A stretch of 32,237 nucleotides of DNA. It comes from a virus. The translations under genes and the position numbers were made by a program. Below are positions 19,827 to 32,237 of the stretch, piece after piece. Under the pieces are notes generated by a model. That model did not search any database. It saw only the letters and a program-made list of their open reading frames with translations, and had not been told where the DNA came from. The stretch is from positions 1 to 32,237 of the IMG/VR virus record IMGVR_UViG_3300032316_000395; one strand, 5' to 3'. Each line of letters starts with the position of its first letter. The first letter of the stretch is position 1.

Positions 19827-20393
19827 ATGCAAGTTATGCTTAAAAATATCCGTATCGCCTTCCCCGCATTGGGTACGCCGCAATCATACGGCGAGGGCGA
19901 GCCTGCCTACGGTGCCAAGCTGATCGTCGAACCCAAGGGCGAGCACGTGAAGCAGATTAGGGACGCCGTACTGGAGGCAGCCAAGGACAAGTGGAAGGAC
20001 GAGGCGCAGGACGTTATCGACGCCCTGACCGACGACCGGAAGGTCTGCTACGTTGAGGCCGAGTACCGCAACAAGAAGACACGCCAGCCGTATGCGGGTT
20101 TCGAGGGCAAGTTCTACCTGTCCGCGCGCAACGCTGGCACGCAGCCTACAGTCGTTGACCGCCTCGGCAATGAAGTCACCAACACCGCAGAGATTGAGCG
20201 TCTGATCTATTCAGGCTGCTACGTCCACGCGTCGGTTGACATCTGGCCGCAGGACAACAAGTGGGGTCAGCGCATTAACTGCACCCTGCGCGGTGTCATG
20301 TTTGCCAAGGACGGCGAGAACTTCGGCGGCGGATCGACGGCCTCGGCCAGCGAGTTCGCTGACTTCGCCATCGACGCGGAAGACCTGCTGTAA
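19827..20393 (+). CDS. DUF2815 family, ssDNA-binding-like protein
   Basis: 188 residues from MQVMLKNIRIAFPALGTPQS; GAGGAAATGAAAA lies upstream. DUF2815 proteins are OB-fold-like and are thought to act as phage single-stranded DNA-binding proteins, always near DUF2800. Features seen: LKNIRIAFPALGTP start, KLIVEPKGEH, GFEGKFYLSARNAGTQPTVV, YSGCYVHASVDIWPQDNKWG and INCTLRGVMFAKDGENFGGG, then an acidic tail SEFADFAIDAEDLL like the partner-recruiting tail of T7 gp2.5 and SSBs. Probably coats ssDNA at the fork and in recombination. One-base overlap with the next gene (TAATG). Confidence 0.82.
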   Translation: MQVMLKNIRIAFPALGTPQSYGEGEPAYGAKLIVEPKGEHVKQIRDAVLEAAKDKWKDEAQDVIDALTDDRKVCYVEAEYRNKKTRQPYAGFEGKFYLSARNAGTQPTVVDRLGNEVTNTAEIERLIYSGCYVHASVDIWPQDNKWGQRINCTLRGVMFAKDGENFGGGSTASASEFADFAIDAEDLL

Positions 20394-20650
20394 TGTCTGA
20401 CATCGGTCACAACCTCGTCGCCGGCGACGAACTTCAGCTTCTATTCGAGCGTATCGAAAACATGGAGGCGCAGAAGAAGGAAATCGCCGAGGACATCAAG
20501 GACGTGTTTGCCGAGGGCAAGTCTCGCGGCTACGACGTCAAGATCATGCGTCACGTCTTGCGCCTTCGGGCAATGGACGCAGACAAGCGTCAGGAGGAAC
20601 GGTATCTGGTTGATACATACGCCTCAGCTATTGGACTTGACTTAGTTTAA
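20393..20650 (+). CDS. DUF2312 / GapR-like DNA-binding protein
   Basis: 85 residues. MSDIGHN..VAGDELQLLFER is the characteristic start of the family. The coiled-coil IENMEAQKKEIAEDIKDVFA and EGKSRGYDVKIMRHVLRLRA with DADKRQEERYLVDTYASAIG follow, covering the full length of the family. In Caulobacter, GapR binds overtwisted AT-rich DNA ahead of forks and polymerases and stimulates type II topoisomerases. A phage copy placed between the ssDNA-binding protein and the polymerase probably helps relieve torsion during phage replication, or competes with the host protein. Main evidence here for an alphaproteobacterial host. Confidence 0.88.
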   Translation: MSDIGHNLVAGDELQLLFERIENMEAQKKEIAEDIKDVFAEGKSRGYDVKIMRHVLRLRAMDADKRQEERYLVDTYASAIGLDLV

Positions 20651-20661
20651 TGTTACAGGGC

Positions 20662-20693
20662 GGGTGCGGCCTAAATCGCCGCACCCCTCTTTT
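20662..20693 (+). terminator. Terminator-like hairpin after the GapR-like gene
   Basis: GGGTGCGGC (20662-20670), loop CTAAATC and GCCGCACCC (20678-20686) form a perfect 9-bp GC-rich stem, 11 nt after the stop codon. CTCTTTT follows, a modest T-run. Looks like an intrinsic terminator that may be partial, since the genes beyond continue in the same direction. Confidence 0.55.
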
Positions 20694-20773
20694 CTGGCGG
20701 ATCGCGCCGCGCACCGGGTGATCCCTTTCCCGTTGTTGGTAACTAGCGCGGCGCGGTCCACCAGAAAAGAGGG
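20685..20773 (+). promoter_or_regulatory. 28-bp inverted repeat sequestering the polymerase ribosome site
   Basis: The left arm (20685-20712, beginning CCCTCTTTTCTGG) and right arm (20746-20773, ending CCAGAAAAGAGGG) pair over 28 positions. There is one wobble pair (T20702 with G20756) and one mismatch (C20698 with A20760); the loop is 33 nt. The right arm ends in AGAGGG, the ribosome site 5 nt before the polymerase ATG at 20779. In the folded RNA this site would be buried. The left arm also uses the T-run of the terminator hairpin just upstream. Confidence 0.7.
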
Positions 20774-20778
20774 AACAC

Positions 20779-22752
20779 ATGACAACACTCTACCTAGATC
20801 TCGAGACGTTCAGTCCCGTGCCAATCACGCACGGCACGCACCGCTACGCCGAAGAGGCGGAGGTGCTGCTTGTCGCGTGGGCGTGGGACAACGACGCGGT
20901 GACGGTTTGGGACTGCACCGGCGAAGGCGGGAATAGGTGGGACAACATGGCCCCTGTTTTCCAGCAAATGGTCGACATGTCCGAGCATATCGTCATCCAC
21001 AACAGCCACTTCGATCGCACGATCCTGCGCCACCAAGGCGTAAACATTCCTGTGGATAAGATACGCGACACGATGGTGCAGGCGCTGGCGCACAGCCTCC
21101 CCGGCTCTCTGGGCACGCTCTGCGATGTTCTTGGCGTCCCGACCGATAAAGCTAAAGACAAGGCGGGTAAAAAGCTGATACACCTGTTCACGAAGCCGCG
21201 ACCGAAGAATATGAAGTTGAGGAGAGCCGACAGTGCCAGCCACCCCGCCGAATGGGCCGAGTTCATCGAATACGCCCGCCTCGATGTGGACGCGATGCGA
21301 GACGTATATGGACGAGTGCCGAATTGGAACAGTAGTGTCAGTGAGCGGCAACTTTGGCGGATCGACCAGAGAGTTAATGACCGTGGTATCGCCATCGACC
21401 TTGAACTCGCACGCGGAGCCGTTCGAGCTTTTCGAAGAACTTCGGGAACTCTGGCCGCTCGTGCGGCCGACCTAACCAACGGCTACGTACAGAAGCTGAC
21501 GCAGGGTGTGCGCTTTCTACAGTATCTGAAAGACTACCACAATTTCACGCCAAAGGACTTGACCAAGGGCACCGTCGCGGAACTGCTCGCCGGCGACAGC
21601 CTGACGCCCGAAGTGCGCGAGCTGCTTGAGATACGTCAGCAGGCCTCGGCCACGTCACCGGCCAAGTATAAGGTGCTGCTCGCCGCCACGTCGTCCGACG
21701 GGCGTCTGCGCGGCACGCTCCAGTTCTGCGGCGCGTCGCGCACCGGCCGTGACGCGGGGCGTATCTTTCAACCGCAGAACCTACCGCGCCCTACACTGGA
21801 CGCCGACACGATCGAGGCCGGCATCGCCGCCATGAAGCTGGACTGCGAAGACCTGCTGTTCGACAACGTGACCGACCTCTGTTCGTCCGCCGTGCGTGGG
21901 TGCCTCGTGGCCCCTCCCGGCCGCAAGCTGGTCATCGCCGACCTGTCCAACATCGAGGGCCGCGTGCTTGCGTGGCTGGCCGGCGAAGATTGGAAGGTTG
22001 AGGCCTTCTATGCCTTTGATCGTGGCGTCGGGCACGACCTGTACGTCGTGGCATATGCCAAGGGCTTCAACGTCAAACCTGAAGAGGTGGTGGAGAACAA
22101 GAATAACGGCGACGGTTCCATGCGCCAGTACGGCAAGACGATGGAATTGGCGTGCGGCTATCAGGGCGGCGTTGGGGCGTTCCGCGTGATGGGCGGCCCT
22201 GCGGTCGCGGCCATGTCCGACGACGAGATCCAGCCGCTGGTCAGCGCGTGGCGCAAGGCACACCCAAATGTGGTCAAACTGTGGCACGGCGTGGAGCGGG
22301 CCGCCAAGGACGCCATCAGGAAGCCTGACGACATAACCTATTACGACATGCTCCAGTTCGACATGAAGGACGGCTGGCTGCGCATCAAGCTGCCCAGCAA
22401 CCGCTACCTGTCCTACCCGAAGGCGGAGATTGACGACGGGCGCATCACGTTCGACGGCACGAACCAATACACCCGCAAGTGGGAGCGCATTGAGACCTAC
22501 GGCGGCAAGCTGGTTGAGAACATCGTGCAGGCCGTCGCCCGCGACGTCTTCATGACCGGCATGGTCGGCGCAGAGGAGCACGGCTACGGCGTCTGCATCC
22601 GCGTGCATGACGAGCTGATAACCGAGGTGCCTGACACGTCGTGTTACAACGTCGCGGAGTTGTCATCAATTATGTCCACCATCCCGTCGTGGGCCGTCGG
22701 CCTGCCACTGGCTGCGGCTGGGTTTGAGACCCACCGGTACAAGAAGGACTGA
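20779..22752 (+). CDS. Family A DNA polymerase with 3'-5' exonuclease
   Basis: 657 residues, no 5'-3' exonuclease. Exonuclease motifs: YLDLET (D7, E9), IHNSHFD (N75-D79) and YARLDVD (Y165, D169). Polymerase motif A is VIADLSNIEGR (D388), the variant of DYSQIELR found in a phage subfamily. Motif B is RQYGKTMELACGYQGG (R449, K453). Motif C is RVHDE (608-612). All catalytic residues are present. It would be the replicative polymerase, working with the primase-helicase and the ssDNA-binding protein upstream. Expression is probably limited by the hairpin over its ribosome site. Next gene starts 3 nt after its stop. Confidence 0.93.
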   Translation: MTTLYLDLETFSPVPITHGTHRYAEEAEVLLVAWAWDNDAVTVWDCTGEGGNRWDNMAPVFQQMVDMSEHIVIHNSHFDRTILRHQGVNIPVDKIRDTMVQALAHSLPGSLGTLCDVLGVPTDKAKDKAGKKLIHLFTKPRPKNMKLRRADSASHPAEWAEFIEYARLDVDAMRDVYGRVPNWNSSVSERQLWRIDQRVNDRGIAIDLELARGAVRAFRRTSGTLAARAADLTNGYVQKLTQGVRFLQYLKDYHNFTPKDLTKGTVAELLAGDSLTPEVRELLEIRQQASATSPAKYKVLLAATSSDGRLRGTLQFCGASRTGRDAGRIFQPQNLPRPTLDADTIEAGIAAMKLDCEDLLFDNVTDLCSSAVRGCLVAPPGRKLVIADLSNIEGRVLAWLAGEDWKVEAFYAFDRGVGHDLYVVAYAKGFNVKPEEVVENKNNGDGSMRQYGKTMELACGYQGGVGAFRVMGGPAVAAMSDDEIQPLVSAWRKAHPNVVKLWHGVERAAKDAIRKPDDITYYDMLQFDMKDGWLRIKLPSNRYLSYPKAEIDDGRITFDGTNQYTRKWERIETYGGKLVENIVQAVARDVFMTGMVGAEEHGYGVCIRVHDELITEVPDTSCYNVAELSSIMSTIPSWAVGLPLAAAGFETHRYKKD

Positions 22753-26450: not shown

Positions 26451-26602
26451 AACTAGCTAAGGATGTGTGCCCCCACGGTGAGGCGTGGACTACGCCTTGC
26501 GGCTTTTGCGACGAGGACGGGACCGACGTACCGCAAGAGGTGCTGGACGCCGCCGAACAGCGAGACCGCCTTCAGCGTAAGGCTCCTCGCCATACTTCCT
26601 GA
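26447..26602 (+). CDS. 51-aa zinc-ribbon-like peptide
   Basis: ATG at 26447 overlaps the previous stop (ATGA); TGA ends at 26602. MKLAKDVCPHGEAWTTPCGF begins the product, with C8, H10, C18 and C21 (CPHGEAWTTPCGFC) in a zinc-knuckle-like pattern that echoes the CEHG...CVRC of the preceding gene. The last 113 nt overlap, on the opposite strand, the 3' end of the virion gene at 26490. Last gene of the rightward unit. Confidence 0.55.
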   Translation: MKLAKDVCPHGEAWTTPCGFCDEDGTDVPQEVLDAAEQRDRLQRKAPRHTS

Positions 26603-28244
26603 TGTCTTCTAAGTACTTTGAAGTTTCGTCTACCCATTGCTGGTCGAAAGCCTGAACGCGAGGGTCAGACCCAAACGCGTCTTTAACTTCTTTCGGTGTG
26701 CGCTGGAACAGGTACGCTTGGATTTGCACAGGGGTGTAACCCTTGTCGGCAAGTGTTTCCATAGCTCTGAAATAGTCACGAAACATCAACTCGCGCGGCA
26801 ACCCAAATTCTGTGCCCCCCTCGTAAGTTCCTTTCAATTCCTTTGGATAGTTAGGGTGCTCGACTGGGACGGCGTTGCGGTTGCTTGATGCACCGGAAGG
26901 GCTGAGACCTGTTATAGCGCGACCTGACGTGCCTTCAGGGGCGTACAGCAATTCGGGTACGGTTAACGCAACGCGGTTCGACCCGATATCAGGGAAGCCT
27001 TGGTCAAGCGCTGATGCTTTATCAAGAAGTTTTTGAACGGCAGTCCGTTGCGGCATTTTTACTTTGGAAATGTCGTTTAGTTGCGCTGCGGCGGCCATTG
27101 GGTCGACGGCAAAACCCGTGAAGTCCTTGGCGGCTTCTTCCCCAAGTATCTTCCTAACATCCACATCAAAGTTTGATAGATTGTCTTTGGTTACACCCCC
27201 CGCCGCCAACTGCCGACCGAGCAGGTCCATCATCGCGGTGGATTGATCAAGGCCGGTGGCACCCATCGTGGTGTAAACACCAGCTACCGGCTTTCCAAAC
27301 CTGTCTTCGCCGCTTCGCTGCATGTTCTCAAGCGCGCGGATAACAGCGGGCGAACTCTTCCACGCTTCGAGGCCACCAAGCCCTTCGGCGTAGCGCGCAA
27401 AGTCGGGGCCACCCATCGCCAAAGTTTCGCCTACTTGGGGACGGTCGTTGACGCGGCTCGTTGCGGTGCCAGCAATCAATTTGTCGCCGATCAGCGGTAT
27501 ACCAGAACCAAACTTCTTAGCCATATCTTCAGGGGTCGTCACAAATTCAGGCGGTAAATCGACGACGTTACGCACTTCGGTGGTTACACGGTTGGCGGGG
27601 ACGCTCCCCGACAAACCAGAATAGCCTTTATTGCTTTGCGCCATGAACGGACGGCGGCCAACAATCGGCACACGATTGAGAATAGCAAACGATCCACCTA
27701 ACCCTGCGCCTTGTGGAAACTCCACGCCCGCAAGTTCTGGGTGCGGTTCGGCGACCGGCTCGATGGCTTGATATTTTGTTTTTCGCGCGGTTGGTGGCGT
27801 CTCTACCTTTACCGCCAGCTCAGGCAGGCGCAGGTTTTCGCTGATTACTTCTGGGGCTGTCTTCGCCCAGTCTGGCGCGTTGGGCGAGAACAAGTCAAAA
27901 TTGCGGGCGTAGTCGGCGGCCTTAAACCGATCCATGTACTTGCCGCGCTCGTTTACGAAGCCGCGAGAGTTAGCGTCCAGAGATGCTTGGGAACGGACCT
28001 TGGGGTCTGGGATCGCATCAAGCGCGTCAAGATGGGTTGGGCCGGTATATGTCTTCCCGCCGACCCGCACCGCAGACAGCAAGCTAGGTGGTTTGCTTTT
28101 TGGTTTAGGCGTCACCGTCATTTCTGGCGCGGGTGCCTTTGGCTTCGGGTTTACCGCAAGTTTTGCCTTAGCGGCGGCCTTAGCGGCGGCCTTAGCGGCG
28201 GCTTCTCGCGCGGCCTTAGCAGCTAACTTTGACGCGATACCCAT
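26490..28244 (-). CDS. Large virion-type protein A (Ala/Lys-rich N-terminus)
   Basis: 584 residues from MGIASKLAAKAAREAAAKAA at 28244, with AAGGAAG 5 nt upstream. Residues 1-40 are an Ala/Lys/Arg helix ending in VNPKPKAPAPE, nearly the same as the start of the next upstream gene. The middle has no recognised enzyme motif (for example RVGGKTYTGPTHLDALDAIP, and GLGGSFAILNRVPIVGRRPF). The C-terminus is YAEGGLAVRRRPAPLAVRRS and then more Arg/Lys. YAEGG-type ends are common in environmental phage virion proteins. Probably an internal or ejected virion protein; function unproven. The last 113 nt overlap the opposite-strand 51-aa gene. Confidence 0.7.
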   Translation of the reverse strand: MGIASKLAAKAAREAAAKAAAKAAAKAKLAVNPKPKAPAPEMTVTPKPKSKPPSLLSAVRVGGKTYTGPTHLDALDAIPDPKVRSQASLDANSRGFVNERGKYMDRFKAADYARNFDLFSPNAPDWAKTAPEVISENLRLPELAVKVETPPTARKTKYQAIEPVAEPHPELAGVEFPQGAGLGGSFAILNRVPIVGRRPFMAQSNKGYSGLSGSVPANRVTTEVRNVVDLPPEFVTTPEDMAKKFGSGIPLIGDKLIAGTATSRVNDRPQVGETLAMGGPDFARYAEGLGGLEAWKSSPAVIRALENMQRSGEDRFGKPVAGVYTTMGATGLDQSTAMMDLLGRQLAAGGVTKDNLSNFDVDVRKILGEEAAKDFTGFAVDPMAAAAQLNDISKVKMPQRTAVQKLLDKASALDQGFPDIGSNRVALTVPELLYAPEGTSGRAITGLSPSGASSNRNAVPVEHPNYPKELKGTYEGGTEFGLPRELMFRDYFRAMETLADKGYTPVQIQAYLFQRTPKEVKDAFGSDPRVQAFDQQWVDETSKYLEDIRKYGEEPYAEGGLAVRRRPAPLAVRRSRPRRKSRKA

Positions 28245-28246
28245 GC

Positions 28247-30337
28247 TTACTTCCTTGCTTTGTTGACGGCGTATACCGCAGATTTGCCTTTTGAGAAACA
28301 ACGATCTGCGGACACGCGACCACCGACGGCGTAACCTTCAAAGACGGGAGGCAGTTCGATTGGGTTTTCCTTTAAGTACTCGACAGCTTGCAAGGCGCTT
28401 TCGATATTTTCAGCGTCCCACCCGCCGGGGTCTTCTAGGACGCTTAAAATATCGTTTAGGGAATATGAGTTGGTGCCGACGGGGATATCAAGTTTGTTGA
28501 TAAACTTGTCTGCCTCTTTGTAAGCGTCTGTACCGTAACCACCCATTTCCGTCTTATAGAACTTGCGCACGGCTTGCCCGCCCGGACTGTTGCGCATCCA
28601 ATTATAAGCATCGGTAAGAGTTCTATCGTACTCATCGGACGGGATCAAATTGTCGCCCAAACGACGCAAGCCGCTGTTTTCCTCGTCGCCAATTTGCCCC
28701 CACTTACCGCTCTGCACAAAGTCACGGACAAAGGGTAGGTATTCGTCTTTTGGCTTGGCGTTCTGCTTGCCCTTAATCTGAATAATATCGTCGGGCGTGG
28801 GGTTCGCGGCCAGCCATTCACGCTGCTTTAAGCTGAGATTGGTTTGGTACGTCCTAGTCCACCGTGGGTCATCCATACCGATACCCATCGGCCCTGTGAC
28901 TTGATCGGTGTCTGCTTTTGCGGCAGCGGTAATTTCGTCGAGAGCATCACGAGGGATTTCGGAAAGCGCGGTGCGCTGGCGACCCGGGCGTGTCTCAATC
29001 GTCACATGCGGCTCGCCTTTGGCGTCACGCAGTGAGAAGATGCGCGTCCGACCAGACGCGACGTCGTCGCAATAGCCGCCAACGCAGTGGCCCATTGTGT
29101 TGCCCTCGTAATCAAGGGCGTCTTGTAGTTGTTGGGTGCGTTCGCCCCGATTAAGAAGTTTAAGTGTTTCAGCTTCCGTGGCCCCTTGGCTCAAAGTTAC
29201 ACCAGTACGTGGGTCAGTTATTTCAAATCCGTCCCATCCGGGGACGGGGGTGACAGAAGCACCTTCAGGCAATACGGCTTCTGGTGCCTTCAGCTCCGCC
29301 CAACGCAATCCCATGGGGTTGTCATCGGCGTACTCTTTGAACGCCTGCACGGCAGGGCTGTCGAGATTGCTCAGTGCAGCGCGCTCCATCTCCTTAGCGC
29401 GGAACTGGTTGATTAAACCGACGCGTTCGGCCGCCTGCGCCAGACCCATGCGTCCGAGGCTTTCGGGGCGCACGGCCAGATCGCTTGGCAAACCGCTGCG
29501 GGGGTCTATGGCGTTGCGCATCTCGTCGAGCATGTGTCCCATGCCCATCTTATCCTGCAAAGTGTAGGTGTCGCCTATACCGTATAATTCATCTGTAACA
29601 GGAGCTTTTTTAAGCCACGGCATGTTTACCGCGAGGGTCGCGCCGTAATCATATCCCGCCCTTGGGTCTGACCCAGCCGGTGTAAACAGTTGGTCAATGC
29701 CAAGGGCGCTGCCAATCGGCTGTCTGCTGATAACGCTTGACGCGGTATCTGACCACTCGTCGGGCGACAACGCAACGTGTAGCCCACCGCGCTCGGCCAG
29801 CGCGCGCATCGGGTCGTCCGGCGTTCCCATCTCGTTTTTAATGTAACGCGGTGCTGCGCGAAGAAACCAGTTCTGCAATTCGCTTAGGGGACCGGAAGCG
29901 TCGCGGGCGAGGCGCAGACTGTTGTCCGCAATACGGCGCGCTGCGTTTTCTGGCGAGCGGTTCGGGTTAGCTTGATCCACGATACTCTGGGCCTTTGCGC
30001 GAGCCTCGTCCTCGCGGTCAAATATCATCGGGGTTTTATCGTTCATCACTACCCATCTGCCGTCGTCGCCCGGTATTTGTACGACTTTTACACCAAGATC
30101 AGACGCTTTCTGCCCTCCGATGCTTTTGTCCACGAACCACTGCCCACCTTTTGTCTTGACAGCAAAGGGCGGCAGCCCCGGTCCCGGTGCAGGGAGTGCA
30201 AGTGGTTTTTCTGGTGCGGGCAGCGCGGGGCGTGGCTTCGGGTTGACCGTCAGTTTTGCTTTAGCGGCAGCCTTAGCAGCAGCCCTAGCGGCGGCCTCCT
30301 TTGCGGCCTTGGCAGCGAAACGCGACGCGATGCTCAC
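28247..30337 (-). CDS. Large virion-type protein B with PcfJ-like motif
   Basis: 696 residues from a GTG at 30337 (AAGGAAG 8 nt upstream). Residues 1-35 (MSIASRFAAKAAKEAAARAA, then AKAAAKAKLTVNPKP) repeat the Ala/Lys leader of protein A. Residues 409-449 contain DYEGNTMGHCVGGYCDDVAS, GRTRIFSLRDAKGEPHVTIE, matching the PcfJ-like family pattern EG..MxHCVG.Y...V..G...I.SLRD....P..TIE. The C-terminus is EGYAVGGRVSADRCFSKGKS. PcfJ-like proteins are found in conjugative elements and phages and are poorly understood. Co-transcribed with protein A and the upstream gene, so probably a virion or ejection protein. The final codons ARK are also the ribosome site of protein A. Confidence 0.75.
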   Translation of the reverse strand: MSIASRFAAKAAKEAAARAAAKAAAKAKLTVNPKPRPALPAPEKPLALPAPGPGLPPFAVKTKGGQWFVDKSIGGQKASDLGVKVVQIPGDDGRWVVMNDKTPMIFDREDEARAKAQSIVDQANPNRSPENAARRIADNSLRLARDASGPLSELQNWFLRAAPRYIKNEMGTPDDPMRALAERGGLHVALSPDEWSDTASSVISRQPIGSALGIDQLFTPAGSDPRAGYDYGATLAVNMPWLKKAPVTDELYGIGDTYTLQDKMGMGHMLDEMRNAIDPRSGLPSDLAVRPESLGRMGLAQAAERVGLINQFRAKEMERAALSNLDSPAVQAFKEYADDNPMGLRWAELKAPEAVLPEGASVTPVPGWDGFEITDPRTGVTLSQGATEAETLKLLNRGERTQQLQDALDYEGNTMGHCVGGYCDDVASGRTRIFSLRDAKGEPHVTIETRPGRQRTALSEIPRDALDEITAAAKADTDQVTGPMGIGMDDPRWTRTYQTNLSLKQREWLAANPTPDDIIQIKGKQNAKPKDEYLPFVRDFVQSGKWGQIGDEENSGLRRLGDNLIPSDEYDRTLTDAYNWMRNSPGGQAVRKFYKTEMGGYGTDAYKEADKFINKLDIPVGTNSYSLNDILSVLEDPGGWDAENIESALQAVEYLKENPIELPPVFEGYAVGGRVSADRCFSKGKSAVYAVNKARK

Positions 30338-30339
30338 CG

Positions 30340-32237
30340 TTAGCGCTTCCTTGCTACGCGGCGACCCGCCATCCCGCCGCCTAACGGCAGCACCGACAGC
30401 GCGTCAACCATACGCTTGGCATTTGCAGCTTCGGCGTCGTCGCGCACATATGGACTTAATTCACGCGCCCCACCGCGCATCGCAGCGAAGTCGCCCGCGC
30501 TGGCCATTACAGGAAACGCGGGGTACAGGGCGGTGTCAAAAGCCATGCCGTATGGATCTTCTTTGATTGCGTTAACGGCGACAGAACCCGCACGCTGCGC
30601 GTCACGAAGCATAGTCTGCGGTGATGCGCTGGTGATGTAATTGCCTGCGGCCCGAAGTGCTTTAGGTGTCTCGCTGATGACTGCGCGCGGGATGTCTTGA
30701 ACGCGGTATGCTACGTCGCTCATGCGGACAGGCGGCGTAACCATATCCGCCGAACGGGCACCAACGCCGCCCGCATTGCGGAAGCGGGTCTCGTTCGACG
30801 CGGCACCAGCGTTGACAATACCGCGATTGCTCATGCCGCCCAAGTTGCGACGGATTTGGTTGGCTTGCTGCGGCGAGTAGCCAGCGACGTTCTGCGCAAT
30901 CCACGCAGTCGTGTCAGGAACCGTCAATCCGTACTTGTCCGCCAGATCTGCGGCCGCTGCCACGAGGTCATTACTGCGGCGGCTGACCGCCATGATTGCG
31001 TCATCGAAAAAACTTGTCCGCTTTGGGGGCGACTTTGCGTTGCCGCCCTTGTTAAACGCCTGCACGCTGCCGCCACGGTACATGCCCATAGAGACACCTT
31101 CAGCGCTTGAACCATCGTCTACGTAGTAAAGCGCCCCGTCGATCAACTGGGCGTCACGCCCATTTATCGTGACAGTGCCTTCTTGCGGTACGGCAGCTTC
31201 AACGGGTTCCTCTACCACAGGGACTTCTTCCCCGCTGCTGTACGCAAAGCCATCAGCTTCCATCGCCGCATCTTCTTCGGCGGCCTGTGCTTCAGCCGCT
31301 GGGTCTATCTCGGTGGACGGCGCGGGTTCAAAACCACGTTCCGCGAGCAGGGTTGGCACTACAGTGCCCGCAACCGAAGCAGCACGCCCTCCGGCAAAGT
31401 TCTTAACCGAGGTCATGTAGTCGGTGTAGCTCTTGGAGCGGCGCAGCATGTCGAGGACTTCGCGCAGCTCTTCCGGCTTCTGTGCCGAGAGGGCGCGGCT
31501 CAGTTTCGTGTAGACTTGGTCGCCGAACTCCTTGCGGGGATTAAACTTTGCGACAAAGCGGCCGAGGGCAGCCGCTCGGCCCACTGGGCCTGCCATCAGG
31601 AAGTTTACGGCTTCATCCATGTTTCCGTTTTGGATCATGTTATCGAGGGCGTCCAAGCCTTGTATCCGACCTGCGGTTGGTGATCCGCCGGTTATCTTGC
31701 TTGTGCGCTGATATAGTTGGCTTTCCTTCTGCATGACGCGCTCAAAGAACTTTGCCTCTTGCGGCCCCATGATGGTCTTGAGCTTTTGCAGCTTCTCAGG
31801 CGTGCCTGCCAATTTCTTGGCAAGATCGCCACCAGACGAGCCTTCAAGGGTGCGGAAGACAGCCTCCAACCCACCGGACTTAACGGCTTCTCGTTCTGCG
31901 TCAGACATTTCCGCAAGGGTTTTTCGAAACTCTGCGGGGCGTACCTTGCGCGAGAATACATCCAAGCCATAACGTAACGCGTCACGAACTTCGAGGTCAC
32001 CGGCGTACTTGGTACGCGCCGCGCGGTACGCTGGGACAAGCTCATCCAGACGCGACACCATCGCGTTGCGGATTTCTTTAAGCGCAGCCGCTTCTGATTT
32101 ACCTTCGCTGCTTGTGCCCCTAAACCCTTTTTCGATACGGTCATCGAGTGCGCGCTTAAACAGATCAAGTGCCTCAACGTCTGGTATCGCGTTTGGTGTT
32201 GGTGCAAGGCCAACCAAAGCCCCGCCCGCGTCAAGGA
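30340..32237 (-). CDS. Large virion-type protein C (5' part outside window)
   Basis: The frame is open to the right edge (first whole codon at 32235), so its N-terminus is missing; at least 632 residues are visible. The visible start LDAGGALVGLAPTPNAIPD leads into a helical region (ALKEIRNAMVSRLDELVPAY; GDLEVRDALRYGLDVFSRKV; RPAEFRKTLAEMSDAEREAV). This is the kind of segment seen in very large phage internal-core proteins. Next come an acidic linker (EIDPAAEAQAAEEDAAMEAD) and a C-terminal part with GMYRGGSVQAFNKGG and a basic end RRVARKR. The stop lies 2 nt before protein B. An internal virion protein is inferred; no lytic or protease motif is seen in this part. Confidence 0.65.
   Translation of the reverse strand, partial: LDAGGALVGLAPTPNAIPDVEALDLFKRALDDRIEKGFRGTSSEGKSEAAALKEIRNAMVSRLDELVPAYRAARTKYAGDLEVRDALRYGLDVFSRKVRPAEFRKTLAEMSDAEREAVKSGGLEAVFRTLEGSSGGDLAKKLAGTPEKLQKLKTIMGPQEAKFFERVMQKESQLYQRTSKITGGSPTAGRIQGLDALDNMIQNGNMDEAVNFLMAGPVGRAAALGRFVAKFNPRKEFGDQVYTKLSRALSAQKPEELREVLDMLRRSKSYTDYMTSVKNFAGGRAASVAGTVVPTLLAERGFEPAPSTEIDPAAEAQAAEEDAAMEADGFAYSSGEEVPVVEEPVEAAVPQEGTVTINGRDAQLIDGALYYVDDGSSAEGVSMGMYRGGSVQAFNKGGNAKSPPKRTSFFDDAIMAVSRRSNDLVAAAADLADKYGLTVPDTTAWIAQNVAGYSPQQANQIRRNLGGMSNRGIVNAGAASNETRFRNAGGVGARSADMVTPPVRMSDVAYRVQDIPRAVISETPKALRAAGNYITSASPQTMLRDAQRAGSVAVNAIKEDPYGMAFDTALYPAFPVMASAGDFAAMRGGARELSPYVRDDAEAANAKRMVDALSVLPLGGGMAGRRVARKR

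Follow-up and report, generated by a model that had tools for sequence, protein, structure and literature searches.

The closest described systems are operators of phage replication genes and ribosome-binding sites (RBSs) opened by RNase III. T4 gp32 and gp43 act on their own mRNAs: the gene 32 pseudoknot, located 67 nt upstream, nucleates gp32 on an unstructured A+U-rich RBS, and the gene 43 operator is a hairpin of 18 nt in T4 or 16 nt in RB69, about 40 nt upstream and without a pseudoknot (PMC3014915). Opening of a structure-occluded RBS by RNase III is documented for adhE and lambda cIII (PMC5371410). For phages other than T4, little is known of how much replication polymerase is made and when. 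Here, we describe one RNA family in front of a polymerase operon that is retained while the genes behind it are swapped.

The window analysed is the IMG/VR viral contig IMGVR_UViG_3300032316_000395 (32,237 bases). Its plus strand carries a run of replication genes encoding a DUF2800 exonuclease, a DUF2815/Enc34-type ssDNA-binding protein of the upstream operon (ssb; 19827..20393; Pfam PF10991, E 9.5e-29; phrog_112), a GapR-like DNA-binding protein (gapR; 20393..20650; Pfam PF10073, E 9.5e-27), and a family-A DNA polymerase (pol; 20779..22752; phrog_17, E 6e-118; PF00476). Two plus-strand hairpins, P0 and P1, sit between the GapR-like and polymerase genes. Elsewhere, two large minus-strand open frames without a Pfam match (26490-28301 and 30340-32217) adjoin a PcfJ-like gene (28247-30337).

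P1 consists of two 28-nt arms (20685..20712 and 20746..20773) that are 93% complementary and enclose 33 nt, the terminal loop (20713..20745). Its pairing comprises 26 Watson-Crick pairs, one wobble (T20702-G20756), and one mismatch (C20698/A20760), exactly the 28-bp inverted repeat with one wobble and one mismatch that the earlier note had claimed. The AGAGGG Shine-Dalgarno (SD) sequence of the polymerase gene (20768..20773) lies within the 3' arm, again as claimed, and is followed by a tail (20774..20778) and the polymerase ATG at 20779. The lower part of the 5' arm serves as the anti-SD strand and takes in the U-rich stretch that follows P0, so that the T-run is indeed shared between the two hairpins. 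Across the 32 kb, only four inverted repeats reach 14 nt (within 150 nt), and P1 is the longest of them. The predicted fold of 20640-20800 has a free energy of -77.4 kcal/mol and is far more stable than shuffled sequences (z = -6.85; 0 of 200 equally stable). The predicted cost of opening the SD is 14.9 kcal/mol in the intact leader and 3.5 kcal/mol without the 5' arm.

Relatives were collected by polymerase searches in viral contigs, from 83-87% identity down to distant loci, and a covariance model of the element was built from 25 leaders. With this model, one element was detected in 55 of 61 close loci in addition to the window, and in about 86 viral contigs in total, near-identical genomes being counted separately. 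Among the six close loci without the element, four end at the polymerase start, one has a different upstream gene arrangement (L044), and one retains a P0-like hairpin and, by eye, a weak P1 remnant (L029). All 18 viral records searched whole contained the element at a single place, minus-strand matches falling at the same place as those on the plus strand. Wherever flanking sequence was present, the order ran from ssb and gapR through the element to pol, with at most one gene inserted before pol; in a few loci gapR or ssb gave no match beside the element, and where the flank sufficed, nearly all relatives had a gapR homologue directly upstream of it. Searching viral contigs for the motif yielded 38 new loci for testing, four of which matched the model. 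All four were directly preceded by gapR, and pol followed in the three with enough flank; occurrence of the element outside the pol context was thus rejected.

The element was absent from the nine bacterial pol loci scanned and, in a search of low power, from three whole bacterial genomes, and the Enterobacterial/Acinetobacter-type pol lineages (L064-L083) gave no model match beyond one at E 0.91. A nucleotide search of the leader in phage records returned only a 21-base chance match, and the leader was not found in the literature accessible as open-access text. Against the Rfam 15 covariance models, the window region had no match even at E<=1, while the other members yielded only a tRNA (in L033) at gathering scores.

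P1 is kept as an RNA structure by compensatory mutation in dozens of related aquatic phages. Among 28 distinct elements, 16 of 20 pairs showed two-sided changes and 97.7% of cells were paired; none of 500 shuffles reached any of the P1 covariation measures, and the signal was lost when the partner strand was slid. On the polymerase tree, about 74 compensatory changes were counted, together with 21 one-sided changes that kept pairing and 22 breaks, these counts being approximate (FastTree tree, simple parsimony, one reconstruction). P1 measures 23-31 bp in 56 of 56 elements, and the start codon stays 5-17 nt behind it while the first genes change. The SD lies within the 3' arm in most members; no good SD was found in L032 and L139. 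The covariation that the earlier note had suggested looking for in relatives is therefore strong, and its notion of a structured leader burying the ribosome site is supported by this selection. The unique elements (56) further contained 41 G-U cells and 5 A-C cells in P1, and therefore the plus-strand RNA is what is selected. The element adjoins replication genes and a GapR-like gene, as might a replication origin, a cruciform, or a protein-binding palindrome; the bias is that expected of plus-strand RNA and not of DNA, which leaves such a DNA element very improbable.

P0 (20662..20686) is a stable hairpin abutting P1, either a weak terminator or a 3'-end barrier. In the window it has 9 pairs and a 7-nt loop, followed by CTCTTTTCTG, and its U-tract is weak (6 U within 12 nt, longest run 4). 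When relatives with flank were scanned for stems, 52 of 53 proved to have a hairpin directly against P1 (median 13 bp), and across the family the 12 nt 3' of P0 contain 3-7 U. A terminator scan of the window returned 4 sites, while 3.3 are expected by chance; given this result and the weak U-tract, P0 is no more than a putative terminator. In L099, the GapR-like coding sequence runs straight into P1 and the stem scan yields a poor 6-pair stem alone (L099:3550-3610), apparently a natural deletion of P0 with P1 retained; L100 carries the same element and starts too near the contig end for the absence of P0 to be judged. The partial termination that the earlier note had proposed for P0 accordingly stays conjectural. 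A P0 terminator setting ssb expression over pol expression, with P1 as a by-product or as an inter-operon processing or stability hairpin with no role in translation, would account for the constant abutment, for the presence of a P0-P1 layout before pol at 49 of 288 loci, against 0 of 288 control stretches, and for the same layout in Bordetella phage BPP-1, where the SD lies outside. It fits poorly with the weak U-tracts, with the retention of P1 in the P0-less L099, and with the 5-17 nt between P1 and start that is held despite gene swaps, a spacing that a processing hairpin alone does not need, and we consider it improbable.

Roughly half of the elements have the polymerase as the first gene behind the tail; in the others, this gene is a Mom-like modification gene, a PAPS-reductase-like or nuclease-like gene, or a small unknown gene. 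In the loci read, the polymerase then follows this first gene via overlapping or near-overlapping stop/start codons. The element stays directly before the first open reading frame although that frame differs, and it is therefore an operon leader rather than a pol-specific operator. Hence, the control of polymerase expression proposed in the earlier note stands in so far as the leader hides the SD before the polymerase operon, and falls in so far as it was specific to the polymerase. The varying first gene behind a retained RNA also implies that recombination swaps genes at the start codon while keeping the RNA. In L033, a Mom-like protein is encoded by an open frame that lies immediately after the element (L033:3217-3978) and reads through a tRNA-Gly call (anticodon TCC; L033:3221-3293) at its 5' end, an arrangement that counts against the gate described next.

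We estimate at roughly 75% the probability that the element acts in cis as a conserved RNA leader, keeping the ribosome site at the head of the polymerase operon closed, a figure that covers this gate only and not what opens it. The lower half of P1 would pair the SD with the upstream pyrimidine-rich strand and, in most lineages, a helix between loop and tail would additionally cover the SD-to-AUG spacer and sometimes the AUG itself. From the conserved fold and the buried SD, we infer low default translation of the first gene, which would be off or low until the helix is opened; the polymerase behind it would probably be held off or low as well, by coupling through the overlapping stop/start codons.

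An internal position of P1, corresponding to C20698 (5' side) and A20760 (3' side) in the window, never forms a standard pair (0 of 56 unique elements; C/A in 45, U/U in 9, and C/C in 2), whereas pairing is maintained on either side of it. The model to which the alignment was fitted leaves this position unpaired, but the arms have no indels there. Parsimony suggested six changes from C/A to U/U and one to C/C. The terminal loop holds a pyrimidine-rich UCCCU (20722-20726) and a conserved GUUGYUGRUAAC-type motif (20732-20743), which differs among clades (GUUGUUGGUAAC, GUUGCUGAUAAC, GGUUGUCCCA).

Many elements have 7-11 loop bases that could pair with the tail at the start codon. The earlier note could see neither this second pairing nor the constancy of the mismatch. 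These pairings vary and involve two or more places in the loop; the loop/tail pairs include GCUGAUAA/UUAUCAGC, GCUGAUAC/GUAUCAGC, GCUGAUCCUU/AAGGAUCAGC, GUUGCUGACA/UGUCAGCAAC, GUUGCUCU/AGAGCAAC, GGUGUCCUC/GAGGACACC, and GGUUGUCCCA/UGGGACAACC. The longest loop-tail pairing averaged 7.30 bp, compared with 5.53 bp for swapped tails and 4.50 bp for shuffled tails. The window clade reaches only 3-6 bp, which is not convincing and counts against the gate, and the best pairing in the window (5 bp) is at chance level; read from the sequence, GUGAUCCCU (20718-20726) can also pair with AGGGAACAC (20770-20778) at 8 of 9 positions, overlapping the base of P1. The tails of L021-L027 contain an in-frame UUG (UUGGGACAACCGAUG) nearer the SD than the AUG, possibly the true initiation codon of the first gene.

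A rough reach calculation, assuming 6.2 angstroms per linker nucleotide and 2.8 per base pair, indicated that the linkers of 5 of 24 distinct elements are too short for loop-tail pairing and full P1 together, and that about 6 more are a few angstroms at most from that limit; P1 pairing confined to the part above the mismatch accommodates all 24. These results would fit a two-state switch, in which pairing of the lower half of P1 and formation of the loop-tail helix are mutually exclusive, the mismatch is the hinge, and a ribosome, a cofactor, or the speed of transcription decides which helix forms. The mismatch that stays unpaired in 56 of 56 elements through 7 inferred changes is in line with such a hinge. 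The geometry is simple, however, and its span per nucleotide assumed; there is no ligand, the window clade shows no evident loop-tail pairing, and the long-linker clades (L021-L027, L033, L109) could form both helices. We therefore regard the switch as conceivable but rather unlikely. In its ligand-free or kinetic form, it is a possible opener of the gate.

For the closed gate itself, the most likely opener may be host RNase III, a tentative choice that we rate at somewhat under even odds. RNase III needs a helix of about two turns or more, a length that P1 provides in all 56 elements (23-31 bp). Cleavage in the vicinity of the central mismatch would expose the SD, and the ssb/gapR mRNA would keep P0 at its 3' end as protection. 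RNase III is favoured because P1 is always at least 23 bp long, because such a cut would expose the SD and retain the P0 end, and because of the adhE and lambda cIII precedent (PMC5371410). Opening the SD is predicted to cost a median of 12.3 kcal/mol when the leader is intact, compared with 3.55 kcal/mol for the 3' product of a cut at the mismatch. The intact cost is below 7 in L022, L033, L108, and L139, the values for L022, L033, and L139 resting on a weak or different SD picked by the script. The conserved mismatch and loop motif, on the other hand, exceed the needs of a simple RNase III site.

These same features, together with invariant pairs, resemble recognition features, the mismatch being never paired within a covarying helix, and would suit an autogenous or other phage-protein operator, at which a protein (polymerase, DUF2815 SSB, or GapR-like protein) would recognise the P1 mismatch or the loop motif and lock or open the RBS; the earlier note had thought a polymerase- or SSB-bound switch reasonable. 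The adjacency of ssb and gapR in nearly every relative with enough flank and the T4 precedent also favour this explanation. However, the first gene behind the element changes freely, the loop motif varies between clades, the 24-bp P1 hides the SD without any protein, and the 18-nt hairpin of the T4 gp43 operator is unlike P1 (PMC3014915). A phage protein as opener, the main rival of RNase III, is thus unlikely, and less probable than RNase III. The likelihoods given to these alternatives overlap, because the two-state fold can be combined with either opener. We likewise hold it unlikely, at about the level of the protein operator, that the gate is two-state throughout, an unpaired hinge in a 24-bp helix letting the RNA swap between SD-in-helix and loop-on-start-codon forms, the choice between off and on being made by RNase III or a replication protein; if true, it would be a previously undescribed phage RNA family controlling a replication-polymerase operon. 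The element offers precise mutants (arm, compensating arm, mismatch to pair, and loop-tail), and the mechanism is thus directly testable.

Other polymerase lineages carry comparable layouts. Bordetella phage BPP-1 (L085) and similar contigs (L146, L148, and L302) resemble the element in having a terminator-like hairpin that abuts a hairpin of 16-21 bp or longer before the operon, on the way from ssb to pol, and differ from it in that their hairpins have no mismatch and the SD lies outside; SD masking is therefore not the sole role there. The long hairpin behind a P0-like one, often CGCUUUGG.../...CCAAAGCG and with the SD outside, was also noted in L201 and L070. BPP-1-type contigs gave no significant R1 match, except for a weak one in L302, which has a GGUGAGG/CCUCACC core in common with the element and a U-A pair at the mismatch position. 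In Caulobacter phage RW, the hairpin is shorter and includes the SD, and the model has no match there. Separately, a tRNA-like sequence occurs within a long hairpin upstream of pol in L155 (3636-3779) and in L290.

Among the gated systems, Escherichia coli adhE and lambda cIII share with the element an RBS closed in an RNA structure that cleavage would open (PMC5371410), and the RNase III sites of T7 and T3 share a long helix in a phage polycistronic RNA. The element differs from RNase III-gated RBSs in its extra conserved mismatch, loop motif, and loop-tail pairing and in its position before a polymerase operon; cleavage here is hypothetical. Like most relatives of the window, the T4 gene 32 leader is a replication-protein mRNA with pseudoknot-type loop-tail pairing upstream of the start; unlike that leader, the element holds the RBS itself within a 24-bp helix, and Rfam revealed no sequence relation between the two. 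The element is not a gp32-type pseudoknot operator, its RBS lying in P1 and the window clade having no convincing loop-tail pairing. The T4/RB69 gene 43 operator is likewise an RNA hairpin close to the ribosome site of a DNA polymerase gene in a phage, gp43 of T4 being a family-B enzyme. A gp43-type operator combines a short hairpin, a UAAC-type loop, and a family-B polymerase, and the element instead has a 24-bp helix before a family-A polymerase. Without the features that define gp32 and gp43 control, the element, an RBS-masking leader of a sequence family that has no match in Rfam, resembles both in position and logic (PMC3014915).
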